Shown here: in pieces, positions 39,181-56,928 of the stretch | How positions within the stretch are numbered: position 1 is the first letter of the stretch | Layout: every line of letters begins with the position of its first letter | From: Pedobacter sp. Leaf41 | GTDB taxonomy: Bacteria; Bacteroidota; Bacteroidia; Sphingobacteriales; Sphingobacteriaceae | Direction of reading: 5' to 3' | Length of the DNA stretch: 64,000 bases | NCBI RefSeq assembly: GCF_001422545.1 | Contig: NZ_LMLE01000007.1 | Location: forward strand, 186,001 to 250,000 | Position numbers and translations under genes: made by a program | The notes under the pieces: model-generated | What the model was told of the DNA's origin: nothing | The model's database searches: none | Seen by the model: only the letters and a program-made list of their open reading frames with translations

Positions 39181-39675
39181 ATGGACAATAAAAATTTATA
39201 CGAGAAGATTGGCGAACTGTTAATAGCGCATGATTTTACCATTGCATTTGCTGAAAGCGCCACTGCCGGAAGATTATCAGCTGATTTTTCTCTAATTGAA
39301 GATGCTGGAAAATTTTTAAAAGGTGGTGTAGTTTGTTACGATGCCTGCATCAAAGAAGACATGCTTCATGTTGATCACGAACTTATTCAAAAATTTACAC
39401 CAGAAAGTATGGAGGTTACGAAAGCGATAACCTATGGCTTAAGTAAAATTATCAAAGCCGACATTCATATTGGGGTAACAGGCCTAACTTGTCCTGGTGG
39501 GAGCGAAAGTGAAAGTAAACCGGTAGGCACCATGTTTATCTATGGTAGTTTTCAGGGGGAGCGCATTTTTGCAGATCGAATAAAATTCGACGGCAATAAA
39601 TCAGAAATCATCTCTGCAACAGTGAGCCATTGCGCCACGCTTCTCTATCGGTACTTACAATCGATTAGTCGGTAA
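39181..39675 (+). CDS. CinA-family nicotinamide-nucleotide amidohydrolase
   Basis: A 164-residue stand-alone CinA C-terminal domain. Such enzymes (PncC type) deamidate nicotinamide mononucleotide to nicotinic acid mononucleotide in NAD recycling. The catalytic Ser lies in AESATAGRLSADF, conserved Tyr/Gly in LKGGVVCYDACIK and the GVTGLTCPGG loop corresponds to G.tG.aGPgG. KPVGTMFIYG ends the fold. The gene converges on the GT39 gene, overlapping its 3' end by 11 bases (39665-39675), so the two transcripts share antisense sequence. Confidence 0.88.
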   Translation: MDNKNLYEKIGELLIAHDFTIAFAESATAGRLSADFSLIEDAGKFLKGGVVCYDACIKEDMLHVDHELIQKFTPESMEVTKAITYGLSKIIKADIHIGVTGLTCPGGSESESKPVGTMFIYGSFQGERIFADRIKFDGNKSEIISATVSHCATLLYRYLQSISR

Positions 39676-41377
39676 ACCAATTGTTAACCGTAAACCAAAA
39701 GCCAAGGTTGGGCTTATAGAGGCTTGTACTTTTTCCAGCTGCATAAGGATAAAATTGATTTCTTTTCAGCTGGTAAACTTCATTAAAATTTTCGTTTACA
39801 CGAGTTAGAACGTAAATATTAATCCCTTTCAAATGTGAATTCTCCACATCCAATGCTTCTATAAAACTAACCCTCTGGGCCATTTTCTTTACTTTTGAAA
39901 TGGGTTCTTTAGAAAGGTAAATCAACGAAGTGCCAACCAACTCGGGTGGAGATTCTAAAATGAAACTATTGCTGGCCGAAATAATCTGCAAGTTATTGAT
40001 CTTTACATATCGTTTCAAGGCGCCTGCAATAGCGTAATCATCAGTTAGGATATATTTTGCAGGTTGATTTTCGATTTCATTTACGGCTAAACCTACTTTA
40101 TTTGCAGCGATTTCCCAGCCAGACATGTCAGCAAAAAATTGTGGTATCGAGCCCTGAGAACCATCTTCCCAAGTCATAGGCCGAGAAAAACTGGTTAATG
40201 CCACCATTTGCCTAATATATGTTCGGCAATTCCCCATCGATAAGATCGGAATGACCAAAGGCAAACTTAATATTCCAAATAATGAGATCATCAACAAAAA
40301 GATGGTCTTCTTCACTCGGCTCAACTTGGTTAGCATGATTTCCCAGCAATATCCACCCGCAGCAAATAGAAAAGGAAACATGCCTAAGCCATAATACAGT
40401 TTGCCTTTTAACAAGGCCAAAGCCAGTACAAGAAGCAATGTTGATATAGGCCAGATTAACAAATACCGCCCACCCTTTTTGGATAGCAGCAGGTATAGAA
40501 AACCCGCCATCCACACAGAGACACCGGCACCATGAAAAAATACGAGCTGAAATAAATAATCAGGGATGTTTAAAGCAAAAGCCTGTTGACCAACTAAGCC
40601 TAAAAAATTAAAAACAGGAAAACCATGTTGTGCCTGCCATAAAATATTGGGCATCATCATTACCAGGAAAAGGATTGCCGCACCAATCAGAGCAGGAAAT
40701 CCCACCTTTAAACGCCCTTTAAAAACCATCAGTGAGGCTAAGCCAAGCGTTACCAAATACATGAAGATGGTGTACTTATTTAACATCCCAATGCCAATTA
40801 CCGCACCAGAGAGTAATAAGTAAGTCGGTTTTTGGGTTTGGAAATAACGTAAAAGCACAAACGCAAAAAGCGTCCACAAAAATTCATCAAAAACTACGGG
40901 TTGTAACAGATAAGAGGTTGCTAAAAAAGACGGCGACCAGATTATTGCCAAACAAGCGACAATAATCCCTAGCCTTTTAGCACCTAAGTAATGTGCTATT
41001 AAACCAGTGAGCACTACCGTTAAACTAGAAAACAACGTGGGAAAAATGCGCCATGCCGCAACACTATCGCCAAATAATTTTGCCGATAGGCCCGCTACCC
41101 AGGTAACCAATGGCGAAATATCTGGGAATCCCCATTGAAAATCTTTCCCTAAATGGATGTAGTACAACTCATCGGCATGTAATCCGTACCGCGGAAGAAA
41201 GAATACATGAAGCGTAAATTTTAGTAAGCCAAAAAAAACCAATAATCCAACCGTGGCTTTGGGGAGTTTAGGATTATTGGTGCTCGATTTTAGAGCAGTA
41301 TTGACGGTGCTTTCCCAATTTGGATTCCAATCTGCTTTCTCCAACTGATAAATAGGCGAATCAATTAACATGCGCAT
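39665..41377 (-). CDS. GT39-type membrane glycosyltransferase
   Basis: A 570-residue multi-pass membrane protein of the PMT/ArnT (GT39-like) family, which transfers a sugar from a polyprenyl-phosphate donor in the periplasm. The signature is in the first loop: YGLHADELYYIHLG, with Asp/Glu as the catalytic acids, followed by GFPDISPLVTWVAGLSAKLFGDS. About 11 helices cover residues 45-380; a soluble periplasmic domain follows. It is 9 bases after the 41387-41722 gene. The target is unknown; the neighbouring cluster suggests surface glycan or glycolipid modification. Confidence 0.88.
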   Translation of the reverse strand: MRMLIDSPIYQLEKADWNPNWESTVNTALKSSTNNPKLPKATVGLLVFFGLLKFTLHVFFLPRYGLHADELYYIHLGKDFQWGFPDISPLVTWVAGLSAKLFGDSVAAWRIFPTLFSSLTVVLTGLIAHYLGAKRLGIIVACLAIIWSPSFLATSYLLQPVVFDEFLWTLFAFVLLRYFQTQKPTYLLLSGAVIGIGMLNKYTIFMYLVTLGLASLMVFKGRLKVGFPALIGAAILFLVMMMPNILWQAQHGFPVFNFLGLVGQQAFALNIPDYLFQLVFFHGAGVSVWMAGFLYLLLSKKGGRYLLIWPISTLLLVLALALLKGKLYYGLGMFPFLFAAGGYCWEIMLTKLSRVKKTIFLLMISLFGILSLPLVIPILSMGNCRTYIRQMVALTSFSRPMTWEDGSQGSIPQFFADMSGWEIAANKVGLAVNEIENQPAKYILTDDYAIAGALKRYVKINNLQIISASNSFILESPPELVGTSLIYLSKEPISKVKKMAQRVSFIEALDVENSHLKGINIYVLTRVNENFNEVYQLKRNQFYPYAAGKSTSLYKPNLGFWFTVNNWFTD

Positions 41378-41386
41378 TCTTCTCCC

Positions 41387-41722
41387 CTAAAAATAAGTTG
41401 TTTTGGGAAGATAAGTATCGAAATCATAAACCGAATCACCAAAATTATTAATTGAAAACTGAAAACGAAAAACCTCCGCCTGGTAAATAGCGAAAGTAAA
41501 GTTATTTGTTGCTTTCAACTGCATGTCGAAGACAATTTTTTTTATGTGCTCATCAACTCCGTGTGCTATCAGGAATCTGAAATGAAGCGAAATAAGGTTA
41601 GGCGATTGAAACCGGATGGAACTGATTTCACCTCCGTAATGATAAAAAAGCGCTTCAAGTATAGCTAAGCCTGGTTGAAATTGCAAATTGCGTTTATTTT
41701 GCGAAATCATCGGGTTCATCAT
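41387..41722 (-). CDS. Hypothetical protein upstream of the GT39 gene
   Basis: A 111-residue soluble protein with aromatic-rich beta segments (LISLHFRFLIAHGVDEHI, AIYQAEVFRFQFSI) and no signal peptide. No family is recognised. The 9-base gap to the membrane glycosyltransferase indicates co-transcription. Confidence 0.55.
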   Translation of the reverse strand: MMNPMISQNKRNLQFQPGLAILEALFYHYGGEISSIRFQSPNLISLHFRFLIAHGVDEHIKKIVFDMQLKATNNFTFAIYQAEVFRFQFSINNFGDSVYDFDTYLPKTTYF

Positions 41723-41905: not shown

Positions 41906-42997
41906 ATGAAAATTGGAATCATTGCGCATCTCAAGCATCCTATTGTTGCGCCCTTTGCTGGCGGCCTTGAAGTTTTCACCCATCAAGTTACCAAAAGCCT
42001 GCAAGCCCTGGGGCATGAAGTTATACTCTTTGCCAGCGATGCATCAGATCAAACCTTGCCTTTAGAACCCATCTATTCTGATGAACATTACGATAAAAAA
42101 ACTAAAGTTAGAAAAAAGCAAAAGGATCTTCCATCAGAATATATAGCAGAACACCACGCTTATTTTAACCTGATGATGCATATCGATGATTATGAACTCG
42201 ACGTTATTTTTAACAATAGCCTCCACTACATTCCCATCACCATGGCTGCTACGCTGGAAACGCCGATGATAACGGTATTACACACGCCACCTTTTTACGA
42301 ACTGAAAATGGCAATCGAAGCAGAGCGCCGCCAACCAGTAATTGATTACATCACCGTATCGCAGCAAAATGCCCGAAATTGGAGTGATGTAGTATCAGAC
42401 TGTGCCGTAATATTAAATGGAATTAAGTTAACTGAGTGGCCTTTTAATCCGAGCACCACCATAGCAAAACATGCACTTTGGTTCGGAAGAATCCATCCTG
42501 ATAAGGGATTGCATCTGGCTATTGCCTCAGCGAGAAATGCCGGAATGCCACTACATGTTGCAGGCGGCATCGCCGATCAAAAATACTTCGACAAAGAAAT
42601 TAAGCCGCTTCTAGGTGATGATATTAAATTGCTTGGACTATTGAATCATGAGCAATTAAGTAAAGAAATTTGTCAGGCCAGCGCTTGCCTGATTACGCCA
42701 TGTTGGGAAGAACCCTTTGGTTTTGTAGTTGCAGAAGCTATGGCCTGTGGTACTCCTATTGCCGGTTTTAAAATGGGCGCATTGCCTGAGTTGGTTGCTC
42801 CAGAAACGGGCATTTTAGTTGATTTTGGCGATACTGAGGCATTAGCTGAAGCGCTAAAAAATGTGACGAAGCTAGATAGAAAGTACATTCATGAGTATGC
42901 CAATGAAAAATTTAGTTTCGATAAAATGATAGCAAATTATGTGCGCTTTATGGAAAAAGTAGCCGATAAAAAGAAAAACCTAAAATACGCCGGATGA
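41906..42997 (+). CDS. Glycosyltransferase family 4 protein
   Basis: A 363-residue GT-B fold glycosyltransferase. The N-terminal acceptor domain has FAGGLEVFTHQVTKSLQALGHEVILFA; the donor domain has WFGRIHPDKGLHLAIASARNAGMPLHVAGG and the nucleotide-binding EEPFGFVVAEAMACGTPIAGFKMGALPELV typical of GT4. It likely transfers a hexose from an NDP-sugar in the cytoplasm. It starts a tightly coupled operon: its stop overlaps the next start by 4 bases (ATGA). Confidence 0.92.
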   Translation: MKIGIIAHLKHPIVAPFAGGLEVFTHQVTKSLQALGHEVILFASDASDQTLPLEPIYSDEHYDKKTKVRKKQKDLPSEYIAEHHAYFNLMMHIDDYELDVIFNNSLHYIPITMAATLETPMITVLHTPPFYELKMAIEAERRQPVIDYITVSQQNARNWSDVVSDCAVILNGIKLTEWPFNPSTTIAKHALWFGRIHPDKGLHLAIASARNAGMPLHVAGGIADQKYFDKEIKPLLGDDIKLLGLLNHEQLSKEICQASACLITPCWEEPFGFVVAEAMACGTPIAGFKMGALPELVAPETGILVDFGDTEALAEALKNVTKLDRKYIHEYANEKFSFDKMIANYVRFMEKVADKKKNLKYAG

Positions 42998-44139
42998 AAT
43001 TTGAGAATGATACCCTAGCAGAACATAAAACTTTTGATTGGTTACGGTTTAGACAAGTTCTCATCGAAATTGAAGCCATGGCGGCTGAAACTGAAAATGA
43101 CCCCAACGGCCCTGTAAAAGAATTTCAGTTGTTACATCACTGCGGTGCACTGAAGCTGGTTTTACCAGATCATGCCCTGGATTTTAATCGTACAAATACG
43201 CCAGCCTTATTGCAATTGCTAAATGATATTGGCAAAGCAAACCTGTCCGTAGGTCGAATTTTTGAAGGTCATATCAATACTTTGTACCTTATTCACTTAT
43301 ATGCAACTCCTAAGCAGCGCCATAAATGGTTTAACGGAGTAATAGAAAACGGCGATATTTTTGGCATTTGGAATACGCAAAATCAGAATGGAATCCAGTA
43401 CGCTGAAACAAATAGCCAGCTGGAAATAGCAGGCAGTAAGACATTTTGCTCAGGTGCAATGCTGGTTAATAAAGCACTTATTACCGGCAACATCAAGACT
43501 GTTGAAAGAGATGGTTGGCAGATGGCTATTATTGATATGGATCGAATTTCCAAGGATCAAATAGATAAAGAGAGTTGGAAACCCCTTGGAATGAAAGCTT
43601 CGGGGAGTTATACCGTAGATTTTAGTGGATACCAGTTAGATGATTCGGAACTATTGGGCGAACCCGGTGTTTATTTAAAACAGCCTTATTTTAATGGAGG
43701 AGCTATTCGTTTTGCCGCCGTACAACTGGGCGGAGCCGAAGCCATCGCGGAATACACCACTAACTACCTCAAAGAGTTAAATCGAACCGACGATCCTTTC
43801 CAGCAATTACGACTTTCATGCATCATGTCAGCGGTAATGTCGGGTCGTTTGTGGCTGCAGCAAGCTGGTAAATATTTCGATAGCTGGGTAAACGAAGGTA
43901 ATCATGATGAAGACCTGATCGCCTTTGCGAACATGACAAGGGTAAATATGGAGGAAATTTGCCTCACCGTGATGGATAACAGCAACAGATGTGTTGGGGC
44001 AAGGGGTTTGATGGAAACTGGAAATCTAGGTCGGATTTTCCGCGACCTAACCTTTTATTTAAGGCAGCCAGCACCAGATGCGACCCGACTTAATGTTGCA
44101 AAATTTTTCATCAATAATCCATCAGCTTTTCATGAATAA
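42994..44139 (+). CDS. Acyl-CoA dehydrogenase-family protein
   Basis: A 381-residue protein with the acyl-CoA dehydrogenase fold. Residues about 100-230 form the beta-domain (FGIWNTQNQNGIQYAETNSQLEIAGSKTFCSGA), and the C-terminal helical domain contains CVGARGLMETGNLGRIFRDLTFYLRQPAPDATR. The flavin-binding pattern is recognisable but the family's catalytic Glu is not evident by eye. In the setting of glycosyltransferase and deacetylase genes it probably acts on a carrier- or sugar-linked substrate rather than in beta-oxidation; this is inference. Confidence 0.82.
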   Translation: MKFENDTLAEHKTFDWLRFRQVLIEIEAMAAETENDPNGPVKEFQLLHHCGALKLVLPDHALDFNRTNTPALLQLLNDIGKANLSVGRIFEGHINTLYLIHLYATPKQRHKWFNGVIENGDIFGIWNTQNQNGIQYAETNSQLEIAGSKTFCSGAMLVNKALITGNIKTVERDGWQMAIIDMDRISKDQIDKESWKPLGMKASGSYTVDFSGYQLDDSELLGEPGVYLKQPYFNGGAIRFAAVQLGGAEAIAEYTTNYLKELNRTDDPFQQLRLSCIMSAVMSGRLWLQQAGKYFDSWVNEGNHDEDLIAFANMTRVNMEEICLTVMDNSNRCVGARGLMETGNLGRIFRDLTFYLRQPAPDATRLNVAKFFINNPSAFHE

Positions 44140-45463
44140 ACCGTTCGATAAACAAAAATTTTGGAAAACTGCCATTTCCATAGCCCCACAAGATTTAAAA
44201 AACTATACCACTTGCCTGGTCATGGTTCCCCATCCCGATGATGAATCTTTAGCTTGCGCCGGACTCATTGCTACCTTGATTAACCTCAATGTTGAAGTTT
44301 TTGTTATACTCACCACAGATGGAAGCAAGTCGCATCCAAATTCACAAAAATATCCAGCAGAAAAACTGGCTGAACTTAGGCTATCAGAGCTTAAAAATGC
44401 CTTAAATTTATTAGGTACAAAAGAAGAAAACTGGCGGTTCTATGGTGCTGAAGATGCATCAATGCCCGGAAAAGGAATGCCCGGATTTGTAGACTTAGTT
44501 GATCGGTTAGGAGCAGATTTAATACAAATTAAACCCGACCTGATCCTGGTTCCTTATGAGTTGGATCCACACTGTGACCATAGAGCAACGCATCAACTGC
44601 TTATTTCTGCGCTTGAACAATCGAAAATCGGTCGCCCCAGAATTTGGGAATATCCCATTTGGCTTTATGAACATGCCATTGCGGAAGACATACCGAAGCT
44701 CGATAAAGGGGAATTATTAGCCCTTGAAGTGAGCAATTATTTACCGCTTAAAGTGAAATGTATCAATGCGCACCAATCGCAGGTAAGCCACTTAATCGAT
44801 GACGATCCAAATGGTTTTATCCTATTACCAGAAGTGATAGACAATTTTTTAACGGAGCGAGAGTATTTCATGGAGCGTAAAAAGATCAATCCGGAAGCCA
44901 CCTTATCCGAAAATTATTTTGAAGAGCTGTATTCGAAAAATCGGGATCCATGGAATTTTGAAACAAGTAAATATGAAGAATATAAATATAATGCTACCAT
45001 TGCAGCTATTCCAGTTGGCAATTATAATCAAGCATTAGAAATCGGCTGCTCTATTGGTGTTTTAACCGGAAAAATTGCAACATTCTGCAACCATCTTGTG
45101 GCAATTGATATCAGCAATACGGCTTTAACTCAAGCAAAAGAACGCCTTAAATCTGCTTCTAATGTCGAATTTCGATTGGGCGGCATCCCTACAGCTTTTC
45201 CACAAGGGAATTTCGATCTGATCTTAATGAGTGAGGTAGGTTATTATCTCTCTATGGAAGATCTTCTCCTTACCCGAGCAAAAATATCAAATGCCCTAAA
45301 TCAGAATGGCATCCTGGTTTTGGTCCACTGGACCCATTTTGTGGCCGATTATCCGTTAACTGGAGATGAAGTACACAATTGCTTTATAGACCAGGGATTT
45401 TCTCGCTTACACCACAGCGCCACAAAAGATTATCGATTAGACGTGTTAAAAAAATTAAACTAA
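44132..45463 (+). CDS. Fusion of PIG-L deacetylase and SAM methyltransferase
   Basis: A 443-residue bifunctional protein. The N-terminal half (about 1-240) is a PIG-L/LmbE domain with the zinc motif VPHPDDESLACAG and downstream ELDPHCDHRATHQLL; these enzymes remove N-acetyl groups from amino sugars. The C-terminal half (about 260-443) is a class I methyltransferase: GCSIGVLTGKIA is the SAM motif, followed by VAIDISNTALTQAKERL and DLILMSEVGYYLSMEDL, similar to NodS-type enzymes. The ATG at 44132 overlaps the previous stop by 8 bases; the next gene starts in its stop codon. This suggests deacetylation and then N-methylation of a sugar. Confidence 0.9.
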   Translation: MNKPFDKQKFWKTAISIAPQDLKNYTTCLVMVPHPDDESLACAGLIATLINLNVEVFVILTTDGSKSHPNSQKYPAEKLAELRLSELKNALNLLGTKEENWRFYGAEDASMPGKGMPGFVDLVDRLGADLIQIKPDLILVPYELDPHCDHRATHQLLISALEQSKIGRPRIWEYPIWLYEHAIAEDIPKLDKGELLALEVSNYLPLKVKCINAHQSQVSHLIDDDPNGFILLPEVIDNFLTEREYFMERKKINPEATLSENYFEELYSKNRDPWNFETSKYEEYKYNATIAAIPVGNYNQALEIGCSIGVLTGKIATFCNHLVAIDISNTALTQAKERLKSASNVEFRLGGIPTAFPQGNFDLILMSEVGYYLSMEDLLLTRAKISNALNQNGILVLVHWTHFVADYPLTGDEVHNCFIDQGFSRLHHSATKDYRLDVLKKLN

Positions 45464-46512
45464 TGCCTTTCACCATCGCATTTTATGTTCACCATCATGG
45501 CTCGGGCCACTTGATGCGGACCCTACAAATTGTAAAAGCACTTCCTAATTATAAAATCATTTTGTTTGGAAGCGCTCTACAAACGGTAGATCTTGCTAGT
45601 TTACCAAACGTAACGCTCATTCATTTACCGCTAGATTTTAATGATGTAAATATTGACGAAGGGCTTGAAGATACGATCCCCGACACCTTTCACTATGCGC
45701 CACTGAATGTACCAGGTATAAAAACTAGGATGGCCATAATGGCTAACATTTTTGAAAGAGAATCACCGATGCTACTCGTGGTGGATGTTTCCGTAGAAAT
45801 TACTTTATTGGCCCGTTTGTGCGGCATCCCTACTATCGTAATGGCGCAGCATGGAAACCGAAATGATTTGCCACACTTAATGGCATTTCAAAGTGCTGCG
45901 TTGATCCTCGCACCTTTTTCTGAATCACTTTATGTTGGTGAGCGGAATTGGGTATACGATAAAACATTTTTCACTGGTGGATTTTCCAGGTTTATTCCTG
46001 ATGGAAGACATGAATTGAAGGAAAATGAAATCGCCATTCTCATCGGGGCTGGCGGCACTTCTATAAATGCCAATTTCATTAAACACATTGCTCAACAATC
46101 TCCGACTCTTATTTTCCATGTTATTGGGGACGAGATACATAATGATGAAAACGCCAACATTTTCTGGCATGGCAGAGTTGATCATCCACAAACGTTATTG
46201 GAATCTGTCAGTATTATTATTGGCAATACCGGTCACAACACTGTGATGGAAGTGGCTACCTTAAATAAACGCTTTATCGGCATTCCTGAATCGAGGCCTT
46301 TTGCAGAACAAGAACGAAAAGCAGAAGCAGTAGCCGGGCGACGAGGAATTTATATTGTTTGTAGAGATGACTTGTGGCGCACAAAATGGCAGGATATTTT
46401 TGAACAAATTATTCGAGAGGAACCAGATTGGAGCGATCTAATTTTACCAAACGCCATCGATAATATGGCCAAAGCCATTGTGAACACCGGGAACAAATTC
46501 TTTAAATCTTAA
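45463..46512 (+). CDS. GT28-like glycosyltransferase
   Basis: A 349-residue GT-B protein resembling UDP-sugar transferases of the MurG/MGT branch. The N-terminus has YVHHHGSGHLMRTLQIVKAL; the donor-binding end has SVSIIIGNTGHNTVMEVATLNKRFIGIPESRPFAEQERKAEAV. It starts in the stop codon of the fusion gene (TAATG at 45463), so it is the last gene of the operon. Its end overlaps the convergent GT2 gene by 4 bases. Confidence 0.85.
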   Translation: MPFTIAFYVHHHGSGHLMRTLQIVKALPNYKIILFGSALQTVDLASLPNVTLIHLPLDFNDVNIDEGLEDTIPDTFHYAPLNVPGIKTRMAIMANIFERESPMLLVVDVSVEITLLARLCGIPTIVMAQHGNRNDLPHLMAFQSAALILAPFSESLYVGERNWVYDKTFFTGGFSRFIPDGRHELKENEIAILIGAGGTSINANFIKHIAQQSPTLIFHVIGDEIHNDENANIFWHGRVDHPQTLLESVSIIIGNTGHNTVMEVATLNKRFIGIPESRPFAEQERKAEAVAGRRGIYIVCRDDLWRTKWQDIFEQIIREEPDWSDLILPNAIDNMAKAIVNTGNKFFKS

Positions 46513-47324
46513 ACTTTTCTAGCGTTTAATATTTCTTTTTGATTAGGCTTTCTGAGGATGTGAAGTTCATCGTTATCCCAAGTGATGAGTCCCAAATCAA
46601 CAAAGCTTCGCAGCCACCCTTCCATGGGCCATTTTTTCCATTTTTCGAAAAATACTTTTGCGTTGCGAGCGATATCATCAAAATGATTAAGCGGTGGTTT
46701 GTACTGCTCATGATATTGGTGATACGCTACTGCAGCTATTAATTTCATACCAATTGTCTGTTCCCGGGCGGTAAAGGCGAAGTCAGTATCTTCTGCTCCA
46801 TAACCTGCAAACCTTTCATCAAAACCCCCAATTTTCCAGTAATCTGCTGCAAAACATCCAAAATTAAGCGACCAAAATAGTTCGTGTGGTAGTATTGCCA
46901 TTTCAAACCTTATGGGGTCTGGTTCACTGCTTGCCTCAAGCTCCGAAAACCAATCTGTATGCTTATCAAAGCCATTTTGTAAATAACGAACTTCACCATT
47001 TACTAAAAATTCCGATTCAAAGTTTTTGAGATACGTTTCTACGAGGAACGATGAAGGAATACAATCCACATCCAAAAAAATCAACCTATCTCCTACTGCA
47101 TTTTTAGCCGCAAAATTTCTGGCCGCGGCCAAAGGCAAATCCTCACAATGTGAAAAAGAAAACTGCTTAATAATAAACGGCGCATCTGGAAGGTTACGCT
47201 CAGGCTCATTCATAAATACAACAACAAGCTCGTCAGGAAAAATGGTATTCGCAGCCAATCCTTTAATCAAATTGTTCAACGCACCGGCTCGGCCCTTTAC
47301 TATGGTTAAAACAGATATACTCAT
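46509..47324 (-). CDS. Glycosyltransferase family 2 protein
   Basis: A 271-residue GT-A glycosyltransferase. The nucleotide-binding core includes LAAARNFAAKNAVGDRLIFLDVDCIP with the DxD motif in DVD, and the C-terminal galactosyltransferase-type motif FDERFAGYGAEDTDFAF. It has no membrane segments. It is 1 base before the neighbouring GT2 gene in the same transcript and faces the plus-strand operon, with 3' ends overlapping at 46509-46512. Confidence 0.88.
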   Translation of the reverse strand: MSISVLTIVKGRAGALNNLIKGLAANTIFPDELVVVFMNEPERNLPDAPFIIKQFSFSHCEDLPLAAARNFAAKNAVGDRLIFLDVDCIPSSFLVETYLKNFESEFLVNGEVRYLQNGFDKHTDWFSELEASSEPDPIRFEMAILPHELFWSLNFGCFAADYWKIGGFDERFAGYGAEDTDFAFTAREQTIGMKLIAAVAYHQYHEQYKPPLNHFDDIARNAKVFFEKWKKWPMEGWLRSFVDLGLITWDNDELHILRKPNQKEILNARKV

Positions 47325-47325
47325 T

Positions 47326-48516
47326 TTAAACTGCCATGGCTATATCATTCAGTTCAGTTTCCTCACCATCAACAGTGCTTTGTGCTGCAAAATAATTTCT
47401 GCAATCTGCTATTGCTTCTGATACCGGGATCAACACTAATAAATCGGGAAAATTTTCGGTTAAATGCTGTTCCATTAGCTCCCAGAGTGATTCGAAGTAT
47501 TGATGTTCATTAATCAATGCCAGTAATGCGTCGCTATCGAAATGAAGTTTAAAAGCGATTAAATTAATATCACGGATAACCTGCCTATCCGCTTTGGCAC
47601 TTTCCCACAATTGCCTTAATTCCTTTTTGAAGGAGAACTTAGTCATAACCGTTTCCAACGATTCTACCATTTGTTCTTCTCTCTTTAAACTCATATTTTC
47701 CCATTGCTGAAGCTGAACGGAAAACCCAAAATCTACTCTGCCCTGCAAGCGTGAAGAAGTATAAACGCGAACTTTTGGCGAATGGCGCATAATGGCATCT
47801 ACATTTTTAAGTGCCTTTCTAAACTCTTCATCTTCCAAAAAGGGAATAGCCGGAATTCTGCCAGCCCTTTCATAAATATCGCAAGTAACGGCAAGGCTCG
47901 GACCATAACATTGGAAGTGCCTTGGCCAGGGATTTTTAACACAAGGATCAATTTCTGCCTCCAGCCTCGTTTTCAAAAACCGATAGGTTACATCTCTCAA
48001 GTGATGAATTTTTGATAAGCTGGGTGTATCGCTTGGAATAATTCGTCCTCCTACAACATCTACTCCTTGCTCCATTTCAGTCAGGATATGATGTATCCAA
48101 CAGCCGTCAACTTCACTATCGGCATCAGTTGACACGATGATGCCTTTTTTTCCGACAACCTGATTCAAACGAGAAAATGCAGCATCCATCAGAAGCCGCC
48201 TTGCCGTACCAATATGAGCAATATCCTTATCCAAATTTAAGCATTGAACATATAAATTAAACCCTGGAAAATCCTGCTGATACCTTTTGCAAATCTCGAA
48301 TGTTTCGTCACTGCAGTTGTTAGCCAACACCAAAACTTCATAAAGCTGATGCGAAACAGGATTTCCAAAATCGTCGAATTGTTTTCGAAGCGCATGAAGC
48401 GTAGAAGTAATGAATTGTGCTTCGTTTTTTGCCGGAACGATTACAGATAATCGCAAGGACGGGTTTGGAGATTCGGGAAAGCAGAGTTCGGACTTTAGAT
48501 GAAGTATGGAATCCAT
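47326..48516 (-). CDS. Glycosyltransferase family 2 protein
   Basis: A 396-residue GT2 enzyme. The N-terminal catalytic domain starts with RLSVIVPAKNEAQFITSTLHAL and carries STDADSEVD as the DxD-type metal site, then VVGGRIIP. A long C-terminal region of about 170 residues, helical and of unknown role, follows. It leads a two-gene minus-strand unit with the gene at 46509-47324. Length is longer than a minimal GT2 because of this extension. Confidence 0.88.
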   Translation of the reverse strand: MDSILHLKSELCFPESPNPSLRLSVIVPAKNEAQFITSTLHALRKQFDDFGNPVSHQLYEVLVLANNCSDETFEICKRYQQDFPGFNLYVQCLNLDKDIAHIGTARRLLMDAAFSRLNQVVGKKGIIVSTDADSEVDGCWIHHILTEMEQGVDVVGGRIIPSDTPSLSKIHHLRDVTYRFLKTRLEAEIDPCVKNPWPRHFQCYGPSLAVTCDIYERAGRIPAIPFLEDEEFRKALKNVDAIMRHSPKVRVYTSSRLQGRVDFGFSVQLQQWENMSLKREEQMVESLETVMTKFSFKKELRQLWESAKADRQVIRDINLIAFKLHFDSDALLALINEHQYFESLWELMEQHLTENFPDLLVLIPVSEAIADCRNYFAAQSTVDGEETELNDIAMAV

Positions 48517-51343: not shown

Positions 51344-52126
51344 ATGAAAAACAACAAAACAAAGCTAACCCCCGAAGAGCACCGACTTTTTGGCGACCTT
51401 ATGCCCGAAGAGTTAGAAGATGTACTTCACTCCGGATTTAACCGCCGTCATTTTGTAAAACTAATGGGCATGGCCACAGCTGGTTTATTGGCAAGTTATG
51501 CCCTTGGAGCCGAACAACTTTTTGCCAGGGCTGTAGAAATGGAAGATATTCCTGACTTGATACCCGAAGCAATTGAAAATGGCGTTACGGTAAACTTCAA
51601 AGTTAATTCAACTGCCCGCAATGTGCTTGTCGATTCGCGAATGACCTTGCTGGATACACTTCGGGAACGAATAGGTTTAACCGGCTCAAAAAAAGGCTGC
51701 GATCATGGCCAGTGTGGTGCATGTACGGTAATTGTAGATGGCCAACGCGTTCTGTCATGCCTCACTTTAGCTGCAACCTGCCAGGGAAAATCCGTAATTA
51801 CCATTGAAGGCCTTGCAAAAGATAACGAACTCAACCCCATGCAAGCTGCCTTTCTTAAACACGATGGTTTTCAATGTGGCTTTTGTACACCGGGACAAAT
51901 TTGCTCTGCCGTAGCATTGATGAAAGAAGCTAAAGAAGGACAGGCAAGCTTTGCAACAAAAAATATAAGTACCGATCCAAAATCAATTATACTCTCCGAC
52001 GAGGAAATTGCAGAGCGTATGTCGGGGAATATTTGCCGATGTGGTGCGTATCCAAACATTGTTGCCGCAATAAAGGAAGCACAAACTGGCGAAAATGTTC
52101 CGCAAAACTGGCTATTTACCGATTAA
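51344..52126 (+). CDS. [2Fe-2S] subunit of molybdenum hydroxylase, set 1 (PaoA-like, Tat-exported)
   Basis: A 260-residue iron-sulfur subunit. An N-terminal Tat-type leader (NRRHFVKLMGMATAGLLASYALGA, about residues 28-52) precedes the ferredoxin domain with GCDHGQCGACTV and SCLTLA, and the C-terminal domain with FQCGFCTPGQI and GNICRCGAYPNI. These eight cysteines bind two [2Fe-2S] clusters. It carries electrons from the Mo centre to FAD. In the PaoABC family the leader on this subunit exports the whole complex, so set 1 is probably periplasmic (inference). A 25-residue insertion lies between the two C-terminal cysteine motifs. Confidence 0.92.
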   Translation: MKNNKTKLTPEEHRLFGDLMPEELEDVLHSGFNRRHFVKLMGMATAGLLASYALGAEQLFARAVEMEDIPDLIPEAIENGVTVNFKVNSTARNVLVDSRMTLLDTLRERIGLTGSKKGCDHGQCGACTVIVDGQRVLSCLTLAATCQGKSVITIEGLAKDNELNPMQAAFLKHDGFQCGFCTPGQICSAVALMKEAKEGQASFATKNISTDPKSIILSDEEIAERMSGNICRCGAYPNIVAAIKEAQTGENVPQNWLFTD

Positions 52127-52138
52127 TCCGACGCAGTT

Positions 52139-53125
52139 ATGAAATCATTTAAATTTAGTGCAGTTAATAATCCCGCTGAGGCAATTACCTTAATCAACAA
52201 AAATACCGATGCTGCTTTTTTGGGCGGAGGAACCAATCTGCTCGATTTAATGAAAGAGCATGTTGCCCTCCCAAATGAAATTATTGATATTGGAAACCTC
52301 TCGCTAAAAGAAATTAAAGCAACCGCTTCAGGGATTTCTTTGGGTGCTTTAGCCAAAAATACCGCGACGGCAAACCATCCGCTTATCCGTAAAAACTTTC
52401 CCATGCTCAGCAAGGCGATACTCGCTGGTGCTTCTGCGCAAATTAGAAATATGGCTACGAATGGCGGGAATCTATTACAAAGAACCCGCTGCAGCTATTT
52501 TTATGATATCGCTACGCCGTGTAACAAAAGGAATCCAGGAAGCGGCTGTGCTGCGCTTGAAGGATTTAACAGGATGCATGCCATTTTTGGTTGGACACGA
52601 GAATGTGTAGCAGTCTATCCCTCAGATATGTCCATTGCCCTTTCTGCTTTAAACGCCAATGTTAAAGTGCTAAGCAGTGAAAGGGAACGCATTATTCCTT
52701 TTCAAGATTTTCATATCCTTCCAGGGGCCCACCCCGAAAAAGACAATAGCCTCCAACATGGTGAACTTATTACAGCTATTGAATTACCGAAAAATGATTT
52801 CGCAGAACACTCAGCCTACATTAAAATACGCGATCGAAATTCATATGCTTTTGCTTTGGTTTCCGTTGCTGCAGGTTTAACATTAAATGGGAATACGATC
52901 CAGGCCGCCAGTATTGCAATGGGTGGCGTAGCACATAAACCCTGGAGAGCACTAAATGCGGAAGCCTATTTAAAAGACAAAGCAGCAACTGCTGCCAACT
53001 TTGCCAAAGCTGCCGAAGCCGAAATGGCATTGGCACAGCCTTTAGCACACAACAAGTTTAAAATAGAAATGGGTAAAAAAGCTTTAATCAATGCGCTGGA
53101 AACAGCTTTCAAAGGAAATATTTAA
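52139..53125 (+). CDS. FAD-binding subunit of molybdenum hydroxylase, set 1 (PaoB-like)
   Basis: A 328-residue subunit M of the xanthine dehydrogenase family. The FAD-binding start FLGGGTNLLDLMKEHVALP is followed by the segment RNMATNGGNLLQRTRC, then PCNKRNPGSGCAA; these cysteines match the extra [4Fe-4S] site of PaoB. The C-terminal domain has KIRDRNSYAFALVSVAAGL and MGGVAHKPWRA. It starts 12 bases after the small subunit and ends 9 bases before the Mo subunit, so the three are one operon. Confidence 0.92.
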   Translation: MKSFKFSAVNNPAEAITLINKNTDAAFLGGGTNLLDLMKEHVALPNEIIDIGNLSLKEIKATASGISLGALAKNTATANHPLIRKNFPMLSKAILAGASAQIRNMATNGGNLLQRTRCSYFYDIATPCNKRNPGSGCAALEGFNRMHAIFGWTRECVAVYPSDMSIALSALNANVKVLSSERERIIPFQDFHILPGAHPEKDNSLQHGELITAIELPKNDFAEHSAYIKIRDRNSYAFALVSVAAGLTLNGNTIQAASIAMGGVAHKPWRALNAEAYLKDKAATAANFAKAAEAEMALAQPLAHNKFKIEMGKKALINALETAFKGNI

Positions 53126-53134
53126 TTGTAAAAT

Positions 53135-55261
53135 ATGGAAGACAGCAACAAATCCATTGGCAAAGGGATAAACCGCATAGACGGGATTTTGAAAATTACA
53201 GGTAAAGCCACTTATGCCACAGATTATCCCAAGAAGAATATGGCCTACGCGGTATTGTTTAAAAGTACCATTGCTGCAGGTAAAATAAAAAGTATCGGGA
53301 GTACAAAAGCGCAGAAATATCCTGGTGTGATCAAAATAATTACCCATGAGAATATTCTGCCCTTAAATACCAAAGGAGGGTTGCGGGGTGGTGCGCTGTT
53401 GCAAAGTCCAGAAATTACTTTTCATGGCCAGCATATCGGAATAGTAGTAGCCGAAACTTTTGAACAGGCTACTGCAGCTGCTCATTTAATTACAGTAGAA
53501 TACAATCAGAAGGAAGATAAAATCGACTTTGATAACCTTGCCAAAAAACCTGAAATGCCTAAGGGGAAGGAATTGGCCGATTTAGTACGGGGGGCAGGAA
53601 AATCAGCACTTGCAGATGCCGAAGTTAAAATAGAGGCGAGCTACGAAACGCCAATTGAACACCACCATCCGATGGAGCCACATGCTACAGTGGCGGTATG
53701 GGACGTCGACCAAGTAACGTTATACAATGGATCGCAAATTATAAACGGTGCCCAAACCGCTGCGGCAGCCACATTAAATATCAAACCAGAACAGGTAAGA
53801 ATCATTTCGCCATTTATTGGTGGCGGCTTTGGTTCGAAAGGCGGACAATGGGCAAACTTAGTGCTGACAGCTGTAGCCGCTAAAATGGTTGGCCGGCCAG
53901 TAAAACTGGCGCTTACCAGGCAACAAATGTTCAACTCTGTAGGTTTACGCCAAAGAAACATACAACAACTAAGCATAGGTGCAACCAAAGAAGGCAAGCT
54001 GCTCACGCTCGCACACGAAACAATTTCACACACTGCGGTAGATAGTGAATATATCGAGCCCTGCGGAGATTGTACAAAAGTGATGTATGAAGTTCCGAAC
54101 AGCTTAATCAGTTACCGCGTGGTTCCCATGAACCTCATCTTGCCCACTTATACCCGTGGCCCGGGAAAATCGACAGGAAGCTTTGCGCTCGAATCGGCAA
54201 TAGACGAATTGGCGTACACGTTAAAGATGGATCCCATTGAATTGAGAATAAAAAATGAACCCGCAAAAGACCCTTCCAACGGAAAACCGTGGTCATCCAG
54301 AACAACCGTAAAATGTTTGCAGGAAGGTGCAAAAGCCTTTGGATGGGCGAAAAGAAAATCTGAACCCGGTACAAATAAAATTGGTGATGATTTGATCGGT
54401 TATGGCGTAGCCTGCGGTACCTATCCGGCCAGGCAAAGGGATAGCTCAGCCGTAATCAAACTCAGTTTAAAAAATAAATTAGTGTATGCAACTATAGAAA
54501 TTGCCGCCTCAGATTTAGGAACAGGAACCAATACCATATTGGCACAAACCGCGGCCGATGGATTGGGTTTGCCGGTAAAGCAAATCAGTGTGAAACTTGG
54601 TGATTCTGATTTGCCGCCCGCAGCAGGATCGGTAGGTTCTGTAGGAGCATCGAGTTTTGCAAACGCTGTTAACGATGCCTGCACTAAAATTACCGATGAA
54701 TTATTGGCGAAATCTGGCAAACAGTTTTTTGTAAGACCGACAGCAGCAGCGCTGATGATTTCAGAAAATATAGCCGATTTTCAAACCCGGTCAGACTCAA
54801 AAGCACCAGCCGAAGCAGAAAAGTATTCTGCCCATAGCTTTAATGCCAACTTCGCCGAGGTAAGGGTAAATAGCGTGACTGGGATGGTGAAGGTTACGCG
54901 TTTCTTAGCCGTTACAGGTGCTGGAAAAATTTTGAACCCTAAAACTGCCCGATCGCAGATTATTGGCGGTATTGTTTGGGGGATTGGTATGGCATTAACC
55001 GAAGAATCCATCATCGATCCACGATATGGAAATTTTGCAACCCGTTCTTTTGCCGATTACCACGTGCCTACTAACCTTGATATTGGTGATCTCGACGCTA
55101 TGTTTATCAATGAGAAGGATTTCATTCCAAATAAAATGGGCGTAAAAGGAATTGGTGAAGTGGGCATTGTTGGGGTAGCCGCTGCTGTAGCAAATGCTGT
55201 TTTTAATGCCACTGCCAAACGGGTTCGTTCACTTCCGATTACTCCAGATAAATTGCTTTAA
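53135..55261 (+). CDS. Molybdopterin-binding subunit of molybdenum hydroxylase, set 1 (PaoC-like)
   Basis: A 708-residue catalytic subunit of the xanthine dehydrogenase/aldehyde oxidase family. Motifs include TGKATYATDYP at the N-terminus, HHHPMEPHATVA, the pterin-contacting FIGGGFGSKGGQWANLV, and TRGPGKSTGSFALESAIDEL. The catalytic Glu is in MGVKGIGEVGIVG near the C-terminus. It hydroxylates aldehydes or heterocycles using water; substrate is unknown. The complex needs molybdopterin cytosine dinucleotide insertion by an XdhC-type chaperone, none of which is in the window. Confidence 0.92.
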   Translation: MEDSNKSIGKGINRIDGILKITGKATYATDYPKKNMAYAVLFKSTIAAGKIKSIGSTKAQKYPGVIKIITHENILPLNTKGGLRGGALLQSPEITFHGQHIGIVVAETFEQATAAAHLITVEYNQKEDKIDFDNLAKKPEMPKGKELADLVRGAGKSALADAEVKIEASYETPIEHHHPMEPHATVAVWDVDQVTLYNGSQIINGAQTAAAATLNIKPEQVRIISPFIGGGFGSKGGQWANLVLTAVAAKMVGRPVKLALTRQQMFNSVGLRQRNIQQLSIGATKEGKLLTLAHETISHTAVDSEYIEPCGDCTKVMYEVPNSLISYRVVPMNLILPTYTRGPGKSTGSFALESAIDELAYTLKMDPIELRIKNEPAKDPSNGKPWSSRTTVKCLQEGAKAFGWAKRKSEPGTNKIGDDLIGYGVACGTYPARQRDSSAVIKLSLKNKLVYATIEIAASDLGTGTNTILAQTAADGLGLPVKQISVKLGDSDLPPAAGSVGSVGASSFANAVNDACTKITDELLAKSGKQFFVRPTAAALMISENIADFQTRSDSKAPAEAEKYSAHSFNANFAEVRVNSVTGMVKVTRFLAVTGAGKILNPKTARSQIIGGIVWGIGMALTEESIIDPRYGNFATRSFADYHVPTNLDIGDLDAMFINEKDFIPNKMGVKGIGEVGIVGVAAAVANAVFNATAKRVRSLPITPDKLL

Positions 55262-55383
55262 AAAATTTTTTCATACGAAGAATTTACCTGGGAAGGATAC
55301 AATTGTTAAAGAAACTTAAAAAGCTCAAACTTATCCGCGTTTTTGAATGTTAGCAAATGAGTACCTACCACTAACAATTCAGC

Positions 55384-55899
55384 ATGATGCGAAGCGAAAC
55401 GCAAAACCTCAACCATTTAAAGCAAGGCGACTGTACGGTAAACCTGACCGTTAACGGTGAACAAAAAATTCTTCAGGTGCAACCTTGGGTAAGCCTTTTG
55501 GATGGTTTGAGAGACCATTTAAATTTAACAGGGACCAAAAAAGGTTGTGATCACGGCCAATGCGGGGCATGTACAATTATATGCGATGATAAGCGAATCT
55601 TAAGCTGTCTTACCCTTGCTGTAATGAAAAACGGCTCCGAGATTACTACTGTGGAAGGGATCGCCCATGGCGATGATTTGCATCCGATACAACAGGCATT
55701 TATCGATCATGATGCTTTTCAATGTGGTTACTGTACTCCCGGCCAACTTTGCAGCGCTATTGGACTGATTAAAGAAGGAAAAGCACAAACCAGAGAGGAA
55801 GTAAAAGAGCTGATGAGCGGAAATCTCTGTCGCTGTGGTGCTAACGTTGGGATCATTGATGCCATTATGGAGGTAAAAGCAGGAGGCGGCCATGAATAA
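55384..55899 (+). CDS. [2Fe-2S] subunit of molybdenum hydroxylase, set 2 (no Tat leader)
   Basis: A 171-residue iron-sulfur subunit with cluster motifs GCDHGQCGACTII and SCLTLA, then FQCGYCTPGQLCSA and GNLCRCGANVGI. It is shorter than its set-1 paralogue because it lacks the Tat leader and the inter-cluster insertion; it should therefore be cytoplasmic. Two ATGs (55384, 55387) are possible. It ends overlapping the FAD subunit start by 8 bases. A strong Shine-Dalgarno-like AGGAGG is present just before the next ATG, unusual in this phylum. Confidence 0.92.
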   Translation: MMRSETQNLNHLKQGDCTVNLTVNGEQKILQVQPWVSLLDGLRDHLNLTGTKKGCDHGQCGACTIICDDKRILSCLTLAVMKNGSEITTVEGIAHGDDLHPIQQAFIDHDAFQCGYCTPGQLCSAIGLIKEGKAQTREEVKELMSGNLCRCGANVGIIDAIMEVKAGGGHE

Positions 55900-56911
55900 C
55901 TTCGAATACAAGCAAGCAGAAGATGTTGCTACAGCCGTCAACCTTATCAATAAACAGGATAATACAAAGTTTTTAGCTGGTGGCACCAATTTACTCGACC
56001 TCTGGAAATATAACATCACCAACCCAAGCGGACTGGTAGACATCAACCGCATTCACGGTCTCGCAGAGATTGAAGAACTGCCGAATGGAGGAGTTAGACT
56101 TGGCGCCAATTTCAAAAATGCAGATACCGCCTATCATCCCATTATTGAGAACAAATATCCCCTACTCTCTAAAGCTATTCTCGCCGGCGCATCTGCTCAA
56201 ATCAGAAATATGGCAAGTAATGGTGGTAACTTATTGCAACGCACCCGTTGTTACTATTTTTACGATCCTGATGTGCCTTGTAACAAAAGAAATCCCGGTT
56301 CGGGCTGCCCTGCGAAAGAGGGATACAACAGAATCCATGCAATATTAGGAACGAGTGATCATTGTATTGCGGTTTTCCCATCGGATATGTGCGTAGCGCT
56401 CGCCGCCTTAGATGCGTTGGTTAATGTAGAAGGACCCGAAGGAAAAAGAACCATTGCTTTCGCAAATTTCCATCGCCTGCCAGCTGATCGGCCGGATTTG
56501 GATAATAACCTCGAACCTGGCGAACTCATCACATCAATAGATCTTCCTGATAAAGGTTTTGCTCAAAACTATTCTTACCTCAAACTTCGCGACAGACATT
56601 CTTATGCCTTTGCTCTCGTTTCAGTTGCTACCGCATTAGAATTGGATGGAGATAGGATAAAAGACGCAAGAATCGCACTTGGTGGTGTAGCACATAAACC
56701 CTGGCGTTCAACAGAAGCAGAAAATTTCCTGATGGGTAAAAGCGCAAATGAATTCAATTTTGCCGCCGCGGCTGATATTATTTTACGAGATGCAAAAGGT
56801 TATGGCCATAACGACTTTAAAATCGCCCTCGCTAAAAAAGCGATTATTCGCAATGGCCTCATGGCGTTAAACCCTCAATCGCAGCTTCCAGGAGCAAAAC
56901 CATCTGCTTAA
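55892..56911 (+). CDS. FAD-binding subunit of molybdenum hydroxylase, set 2
   Basis: A 339-residue subunit M paralogous to 52139-53125. It has FLAGGTNLLDLWKYNIT, RNMASNGGNLLQRTRC and PCNKRNPGSGCPA, again with the extra [4Fe-4S] cysteines, and KLRDRHSYAFALVSVATAL. It overlaps the small subunit gene by 8 bases, and an AGGAGG at 55881-55886 precedes its ATG. The following Mo subunit starts 17 bases later. It is clearly a duplicate, but divergent in sequence, so the duplication is old or the sets were acquired separately. Confidence 0.92.
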   Translation: MNNFEYKQAEDVATAVNLINKQDNTKFLAGGTNLLDLWKYNITNPSGLVDINRIHGLAEIEELPNGGVRLGANFKNADTAYHPIIENKYPLLSKAILAGASAQIRNMASNGGNLLQRTRCYYFYDPDVPCNKRNPGSGCPAKEGYNRIHAILGTSDHCIAVFPSDMCVALAALDALVNVEGPEGKRTIAFANFHRLPADRPDLDNNLEPGELITSIDLPDKGFAQNYSYLKLRDRHSYAFALVSVATALELDGDRIKDARIALGGVAHKPWRSTEAENFLMGKSANEFNFAAAADIILRDAKGYGHNDFKIALAKKAIIRNGLMALNPQSQLPGAKPSA

Positions 56912-56928
56912 ACTACAAATGAACAAAA

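Follow-up and report, generated by a model that had tools for sequence, protein, structure and literature searches.

A widespread flavoprotein, deacetylase, methyltransferase and glycosyltransferase gene set in Pedobacter sp. Leaf41, with a modified aminosugar-containing glycan as its probable product

The six genes at positions 41906–48516 of the window, by which we mean the whole 64,000-nucleotide stretch of Pedobacter sp. Leaf41 DNA analyzed here (contig NZ_LMLE01000007.1, in a genome of 4.78 Mb), are shown by comparison with other loci to form two separable units. Unit 1 comprises a flavoprotein annotated as an acyl-CoA dehydrogenase, a PIG-L deacetylase, a methyltransferase and a glycosyltransferase (GT2b), and unit 2 comprises three further glycosyltransferases (GT4, GT28-like and GT2a). 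Overall, our best explanation of the cluster, held with moderate confidence, is an intracellular pathway for the synthesis of a modified aminosugar-containing glycan that is probably soluble and may have a stress-linked role. That the four-gene cassette of unit 1 is kept together across seven phyla, including 69 plasmid records, implies that it makes a useful molecule, and the pathway predicts a specific chemistry, namely deacetylation and then N-methylation by one fused enzyme. The open reading frame list confirms six genes at the locus, as follows:

41906–42997, plus strand: GT4 glycosyltransferase, unit 2 (Pfam Glycos_transf_1, 74.8 bits)
42994–44139, plus strand: flavin-monooxygenase-like protein of the acyl-CoA dehydrogenase superfamily, unit 1 (PDB profile, Foldseek and alignment)
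44132–45463, plus strand: predicted fusion of a PIG-L N-deacetylase (domain at about 44216–44611) and a NodS-like S-adenosylmethionine (SAM) methyltransferase (domain at about 44900–45460), unit 1 (Pfam and conserved residues)
45463–46512, plus strand: GT28/MJ1255-like glycosyltransferase, unit 2 (weak family assignment, marginal profile matches)
46509–47324, minus strand: GT2a, galactosyltransferase-related GT2 glycosyltransferase, unit 2 (Pfam Glyco_tranf_2_2 and Glyco_transf_7C)
47326–48516, minus strand: GT2b, GT-A glycosyltransferase, unit 1 (Pfam Glycos_transf_2, 57 bits)

The coordinates agree with the original prediction of coupled genes on which two GT2 genes converge, in that the four plus-strand genes overlap by 4, 8 and 1 bases at their junctions, the GT28-like and GT2a genes converge with a 4-base overlap, and GT2a and GT2b are spaced by 1 base.

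The linkage of unit 1 was assessed over 80 genome loci, which are the best 80 of at least 532 confirmed stretches related to the flavoprotein. All four genes are present in 65 of these loci (PIG-L in 74, the methyltransferase in 74 and GT2b in 69), with PIG-L and the methyltransferase encoded as one gene in 18. As a test of linkage independent of the cluster, we used an even draw of 395 Bacteroidota genomes, with the window's own genome included and counted, in which the flavoprotein occurs in 8 genomes (E up to 1e-50) and the methyltransferase in 11 (E up to 1e-30). In all eight flavoprotein-bearing genomes, the methyltransferase lies 785–853 bases away on one strand, a gap that fits PIG-L, which was not itself sought in that draw, and the three other methyltransferase matches are far weaker (2.2e-36 to 5.8e-32, versus 5e-69 or better). 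The cassette is rare in Bacteroidota, yet linked wherever it is found in this draw, and, given both sets of counts, the linkage of unit 1 is not chance; the unlinked distribution that had been named in advance as refuting the cluster does not hold for this set. The genes also codiverge, with Mantel correlations of 0.60–0.86 over 70 loci against a null maximum of 0.21, to which shared phylogeny contributes.

The original prediction had proposed looking for the same gene order in other phyla, and the flavoprotein–deacetylase–methyltransferase–GT2 set of unit 1 indeed recurs in seven. The genome loci span Bacteroidota, Cyanobacteriota, Acidobacteriota (Pyrinomonadaceae) and Verrucomicrobiota, with phylum names assigned from the record titles, and plasmid loci contribute Deinococcota, Pseudomonadota and Actinomycetota. 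The fusion protein has matches in 69 of 72,556 plasmid records. We drew from plasmids a nonrandom sample of 22 core loci, picked by a PIG-L/methyltransferase query, that covers 21 genera with roughly one locus each; a 23rd hit (L099) is outside the counts. The sample contains the flavoprotein in 22 cases, PIG-L in 21 and GT2b above threshold in 19. The exception is the Rubrobacter locus, in which a search of 16.6 kb did not find PIG-L and a polysaccharide deacetylase (PF01522, the domain family of NodB) adjoins the flavoprotein. A homologous unit-1 set is carried by an Acinetobacter johnsonii plasmid. Within the genus of the window, the flavoprotein occurs in 22 of 145 genomes (E up to 1e-30, own genome included), and one Pedobacter sp. 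locus encodes a flavoprotein 95% identical to that of the window.

The original prediction of a single cluster is revised in that the six genes are made up of two units that are found apart elsewhere. Taking 92 loci (the 80 genome loci and 12 plasmid loci), all three unit-2 glycosyltransferases are present in 15, none in 75 and a partial set in 2, and the GT4 gene occurs in 16 of the 80 genome loci. The GT28-like gene is found in 38 plasmid records, three of which we read (Rhodococcus, Sulfitobacter and Sphingomonas); on these plasmids, GT4, GT28-like and GT2a are grouped together, and no unit-1 gene was found in the 15 kb searched. Novosphingobium and Sphingobium carry the two units side by side, and in Jiella relatives of GT28-like and GT2a lie about 6–9 kb from unit 1. 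Two Pedobacter loci (L039 and L040) hold the same seven functions in a different order, with PIG-L and the methyltransferase as separate genes, and in L039 GT2b is split over two reading frames.

With respect to the individual enzymes, the PIG-L domain (PF02585, residues 29–160) scores 86.9 bits against a cut-off of 28.2, and its H34, D36, D37 and H150, the metal and base residues, are present in 30 of 30 aligned sequences. Its best PDB profile match is diacetylchitobiose deacetylase, and its PDB relatives include the glycopeptide-antibiotic deacetylases Dbv21 and teicoplanin deacetylase. The methyltransferase domain exceeds the gathering score of Pfam NodS (PF05401, 63.7 versus 24 bits) and has a DPW motif in common with NodS; its PDB profile matches are 4isc (4.6e-51, named just "methyltransferase"), NodS (1.3e-29) and then phosphoethanolamine N-methyltransferases. 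NodS is an N-methyltransferase that acts on a freshly deacetylated amino sugar. Because the methyltransferase resembles NodS, the fusion is most naturally read as an enzyme that deacetylates its substrate and then N-methylates it straight away.

The original prediction took the product of 42994–44139 for an acyl-CoA dehydrogenase homologue that oxidizes or reduces an acyl or carrier-bound group, an assignment that we revise. Its matches to Acyl-CoA_dh_1 and Acyl-CoA_dh_2 (PF00441 and PF08028) are weak at 26–32 bits, yet above cut-off. A profile from a 48-row family alignment has DszC as its best PDB relative (8.9e-26), followed by TdsC and MsuC and then many dehydrogenases, with DnmZ, KijD3 and nitrososynthase further down the list (2.6e-9 to 3.3e-7). 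The predicted model (predicted local distance difference test, pLDDT, 93) has MsuC, TdsC and DszC as its closest Foldseek matches at about 20% identity, and both fold and sequence thus place it nearest to these group D flavin monooxygenases. When 10 of the 48 family rows are aligned with five dehydrogenases from the window's genome, each of which has the EGT motif, the catalytic Glu of this motif is replaced in the flavoprotein by Gln (or by Arg, if a one-residue gap is placed otherwise); this Gln (Q358 in the window protein) is present in 48 of 48 rows, and R357 in 46 of 48. The active-site residues of DszC include His92, Ser163 and His391. The conserved His and Ser of DszC-like monooxygenases are present, as H93, which aligns to a DszC His, occurs in all 48 rows, and S153 in 44 (with Thr in the remaining 4), and an FCSG motif is shared as well. 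On sequence and predicted structure, the flavoprotein therefore appears more like the DszC/TdsC/MsuC flavin monooxygenases than like an enzyme with an acyl or carrier-bound substrate, which suggests that the family annotated as acyl-CoA dehydrogenase is misnamed; at best, it would work like DszC-type enzymes, and we do not class it as a member.

As for the glycosyltransferases, D131, D133, E228 and D229 of GT2b are present in 43 of 43 aligned sequences, and the fold matches of its predicted model (pLDDT 92) are numerous and unspecific. Homologues of GT2a in three loci (L100–L102) are annotated as galactosyltransferase-related. Of the four glycosyltransferases originally proposed, GT4 and the two GT2 proteins are supported by Pfam, whereas the GT28/MJ1255-like label is weak, with PF04101 scoring 21.2 bits, below its cut-off of 22, and the MJ1255 family 22.8 bits against a cut-off of 195.9.

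Taken together, these assignments and the linkage lend support to the predicted pathway of glycosylation, N-deacetylation and methylation. GT2b would transfer an N-acetylhexosamine to an acceptor and PIG-L would then strip off the acetyl group, after which the fused NodS-like domain would methylate the freed amine with SAM as the donor. The DszC-like flavoprotein, using reduced flavin and O2, may then oxygenate the amine or a neighboring position, and unit 2 would make the acceptor or extend the glycan. The superfamily of the flavoprotein includes enzymes that oxidize sugar amino groups (DnmZ, KijD3 and nitrososynthase), which makes it plausible that the amine or a site close to it is oxygenated; S- or C-oxygenation may occur instead. 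The predicted deacetylation and methylation are well supported by homology, and the putative oxygenation step is plausible. The product could be stress-linked, perhaps on or alongside a non-reducing disaccharide, an idea that we raise because the units adjoin trehalose or sucrose-phosphate-synthase/phosphatase-like genes in some hosts. In its furthest-reaching form, which we think unlikely, the cassette would make a stress-molecule class not previously described and present in at least seven phyla, an N-methylated, N- or C-oxygenated amino-oligosaccharide on or beside trehalose or sucrose, with the oxidized N-methylamine possibly acting as a radical scavenger.

Fusions and neighbors of unit 1 provide a further hint as to its intermediates. 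We note that the Deinococcus flavoprotein (L007 5614–7977 and L013 2190–4529) is extended at its N-terminus by a domain of some 400 residues that looks glycosidase-like by eye. A Pfam search of this domain, and of a free-standing relative in L060, gave no family; that the domain is real is shown by its relatives, which are encoded separately in the vicinity of unit 1 in Dyadobacter, Spirosoma, Pedobacter, Mucilaginibacter and Pyrinomonadaceae. In Iningainema (L094 11867–13180), a HAD hydrolase domain is in one frame with the methyltransferase, and a similarly long methyltransferase frame is seen in Rhizonema (L095). The Deinococcus and Iningainema domains hint at sugar or sugar-phosphate intermediates. 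Large N-terminal fusions of the flavoprotein or GT2b in two other loci (L081 and L086) were dropped as Rosetta-stone evidence, being probable read-through frames whose extra stretches have no relative among the loci compared. In the window's own genome, no homologue of this glycosidase-like gene or of glf was found at E 1e-10, in a search run without a positive control.

Evidence for a stress context comes from the neighborhoods of the plasmid loci and from one transcriptome. Catalase occurs in 5 of the 22 plasmid loci, as a heme catalase near unit 1 in Novosphingobium, Acinetobacter, Sphingomonas and Sulfitobacter and as a manganese catalase in Roseivivax (the latter sought in the plasmid loci and not in the 80 genome loci). 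The background for heme catalase is 15 genes in 21 genomes, corresponding to less than 1% expected per 20 kb, in a sample of Bacteroidota rather than of the plasmid hosts. Unit 1 lies between otsA and otsB in Comamonas, near both in Acinetobacter and beside otsB in Legionella; Ku, LigD and RpoH genes neighbor it in Bradyrhizobium, and Dps genes in the Deinococcus (L007) and Sphingomonas loci. In Sulfitobacter and Sphingomonas, it is unit 2 that adjoins a gene in which a GT4 is joined to a sucrose-phosphate-phosphatase domain (S6PP, 2.2e-45 and 5.8e-45). According to Table 2 of PMC5660220, ACICU_02432–02435 (operon e), which are annotated there as a glycosyltransferase, a SAM methyltransferase, LmbE and an acyl-CoA-dehydrogenase-related protein, are down 31- to 62-fold in two colistin-dependent Acinetobacter mutants, in which otsA, otsB and a catalase are down as well, as are many genes unrelated by annotation; the section of that paper containing these four genes draws no conclusion about them. 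The same annotated set flanks the BLUF gene blsA of Acinetobacter baumannii in PMC6240043 (blsA being A1S_2225 in PMC3554667), and in Bradyrhizobium a gene for a BLUF photoreceptor (L008 633–1064) lies some 6 kb away from unit 1. Trehalose genes are treated as stress-regulated in passages of PMC6181384 and PMC10325922, from the main texts of which the words LmbE, PIG-L and acyl-CoA dehydrogenase are absent.

A number of observations weigh against our interpretation of an oxygenated, N-methylated and stress-linked product of a fixed gene set. Eight of the 15 incomplete genome loci have at least 8 kb beside the flavoprotein: the flavoprotein stands alone, with about 10 kb on each side, in two Dyadobacter loci (L042 and L054) and has only GT2b with it in a third (L052), three cyanobacterial loci (L066, L074 and L094) are without GT2b despite 8–10 kb downstream, a Chitinophagaceae locus (L049) is without PIG-L, and L086 is without the methyltransferase. 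The other seven (L030, L060, L062, L076, L084, L085 and L091) are truncated on one or both sides by a nearby contig end. The methyltransferase reaches just 71.4 of the 300 bits of the NCBIfam NodS equivalog, and methylation could be O- instead of N-. In the flavoprotein, the C-terminal active-site His is missing, with YLRQP where DszC and MsuC have LHDP, and its C-terminal part as the sole query found nothing beyond a weak match to p-hydroxyphenylacetate hydroxylase (E 0.58). Some acyl-CoA dehydrogenases hold their catalytic base elsewhere than in EGT, and the missing Glu alone is not enough to rule out dehydrogenase activity. The evidence for a stress link consists of plasmid loci picked by hand and the one transcriptome; of the 80 genome loci, which are mostly from Bacteroidota and cyanobacteria and in which this linkage is weak, only 2 have a heme catalase nearby and none has otsA or otsB by the markers used, and thus the stress context is not general. 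The transcriptome in turn, so far as the Table 2 comparison goes, is of colistin-dependent mutants and not of stressed wild type, with many other genes falling too (PMC5660220).

The alternative that survives best, albeit as an improbable one, is a secreted specialized metabolite or signal of the Nod-factor or aminoglycoside type, rather than a stress protectant. The NodS-like methyltransferase, the Dbv21 and teicoplanin deacetylase relatives of PIG-L, the antibiotic sugar oxidases among the flavoprotein relatives, and the patchy distribution within the genus together with plasmid carriage are all consistent with such a product. However, the unit contains no polyketide, peptide or acyl assembly gene, and several proteobacterial and Deinococcus copies neighbor the catalase, Dps, Ku/LigD or trehalose genes described above. 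MFS genes near three copies, considered as candidates for a shared exporter, were rejected, having no relative among the other loci.

We regard as unlikely, too, that the product is a membrane glycolipid, close to one of the two products guessed in the original prediction, in which an aminosugar on a lipid or lipid carrier is deacetylated, methylated and extended while the dehydrogenase homologue changes an acyl chain. The above-cut-off Pfam matches of the flavoprotein fit this, and lipids are common acceptors for GT4, GT28 and GT2 enzymes. Moreover, two hydropathy peaks rise above 1.6, the customary guide value, one at residue 42 of the fusion protein (2.03) and one at residue 104 of the GT28-like protein (1.88). 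These peaks are, however, internal, falling inside the PIG-L domain and in mid-protein, respectively, and are lower than the 2.54 of a neighboring membrane protein, while the other four proteins reach at most 1.32; in addition, the flavoprotein is nearest to DszC/MsuC and lacks the EGT Glu. The hydropathy profiles thus give no clear membrane anchor, and we therefore favor a soluble product over a glycolipid, although the enzymes may be membrane-associated.

Exopolysaccharide or capsule modification appears less likely again. The presence of four glycosyltransferases, of which GT4 and GT2a weakly match exopolysaccharide glycosyltransferase models, would suit it, as would an exporter-type ABC transporter in 11 of the 92 loci (mostly Lewinella-type and cyanobacterial), but this transporter is missing from most loci, and no flippase or polymerase is present among the six genes and the ten recurring neighbor families scanned. 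Finally, a low-molecular-weight thiol pathway like that of bacillithiol or mycothiol, with GT4 acting before PIG-L, is highly improbable, since the matches of GT4 to BshA/MshA and of PIG-L to BshB/MshB models are weak and fall far short of their cut-offs (BshA 48.1 of 273.7 bits, BshB1 46.9 of 182.5 and BshB2 61.3 of 195.25), and unit 1 is mostly without GT4.

Several further features of the surroundings were observed. Just upstream of the cluster, the window encodes a stand-alone CinA domain (39181–39675) and a PMT_2 family membrane glycosyltransferase (39665–41377), and a CinA-family gene lies near unit 2 in Rhodococcus too. Between the PMT_2 gene and the cluster is a 111-amino-acid reading frame (41387–41722), for which a Pfam search gave no match. 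Two successive three-gene sets at 51344–59166 resemble molybdenum hydroxylases by eye, with ferredoxin-like, FAD and large subunits in the same content and order. A long, mostly minus-strand run of genes for unnamed proteins (9750–33848) has a GC content below that of the cluster, and many of its products have N-termini that by eye are signal-like or membrane-like. A short-chain dehydrogenase/reductase (SDR) near 18 of the 80 genome loci was not used as a linked gene, this being a large family with an unmeasured background.

A published counterpart of the cassette is the Acinetobacter set ACICU_02432–02435, which also flanks blsA and which we match to unit 1 by annotation only; no unit 2 is named there, and the consulted parts of PMC5660220 and PMC6240043 assign it no function. 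No description of the cassette was found in the literature searched, which mostly excludes subscription journals, such that one may exist. The pairing of GT4 and PIG-L follows the same logic as BshA/BshB and MshA/MshB, in which the methyltransferase and flavoprotein of the cluster have no counterpart. The flavoprotein is nearest in sequence and fold to DszC, TdsC, MsuC and SfnB, with H93 and FCSG in common, but differs from DszC/MsuC in having YLRQ for LHDP, an identity of only about 20% and a context of sugar enzymes rather than sulfur metabolism. DnmZ, KijD3 and nitrososynthase, which act in antibiotic-sugar pathways, belong to the same superfamily and are more distant from the flavoprotein than DszC is. 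In the synthesis of the rhizobial Nod factor, a deacetylase acts first and then a NodS-type methyltransferase. The cluster resembles this NodB–NodS pair in combining a deacetylase with a NodS-type SAM methyltransferase, and differs from it in that no NodA or NodC is annotated in the cluster and its deacetylase is of the PIG-L family, fused to the methyltransferase.

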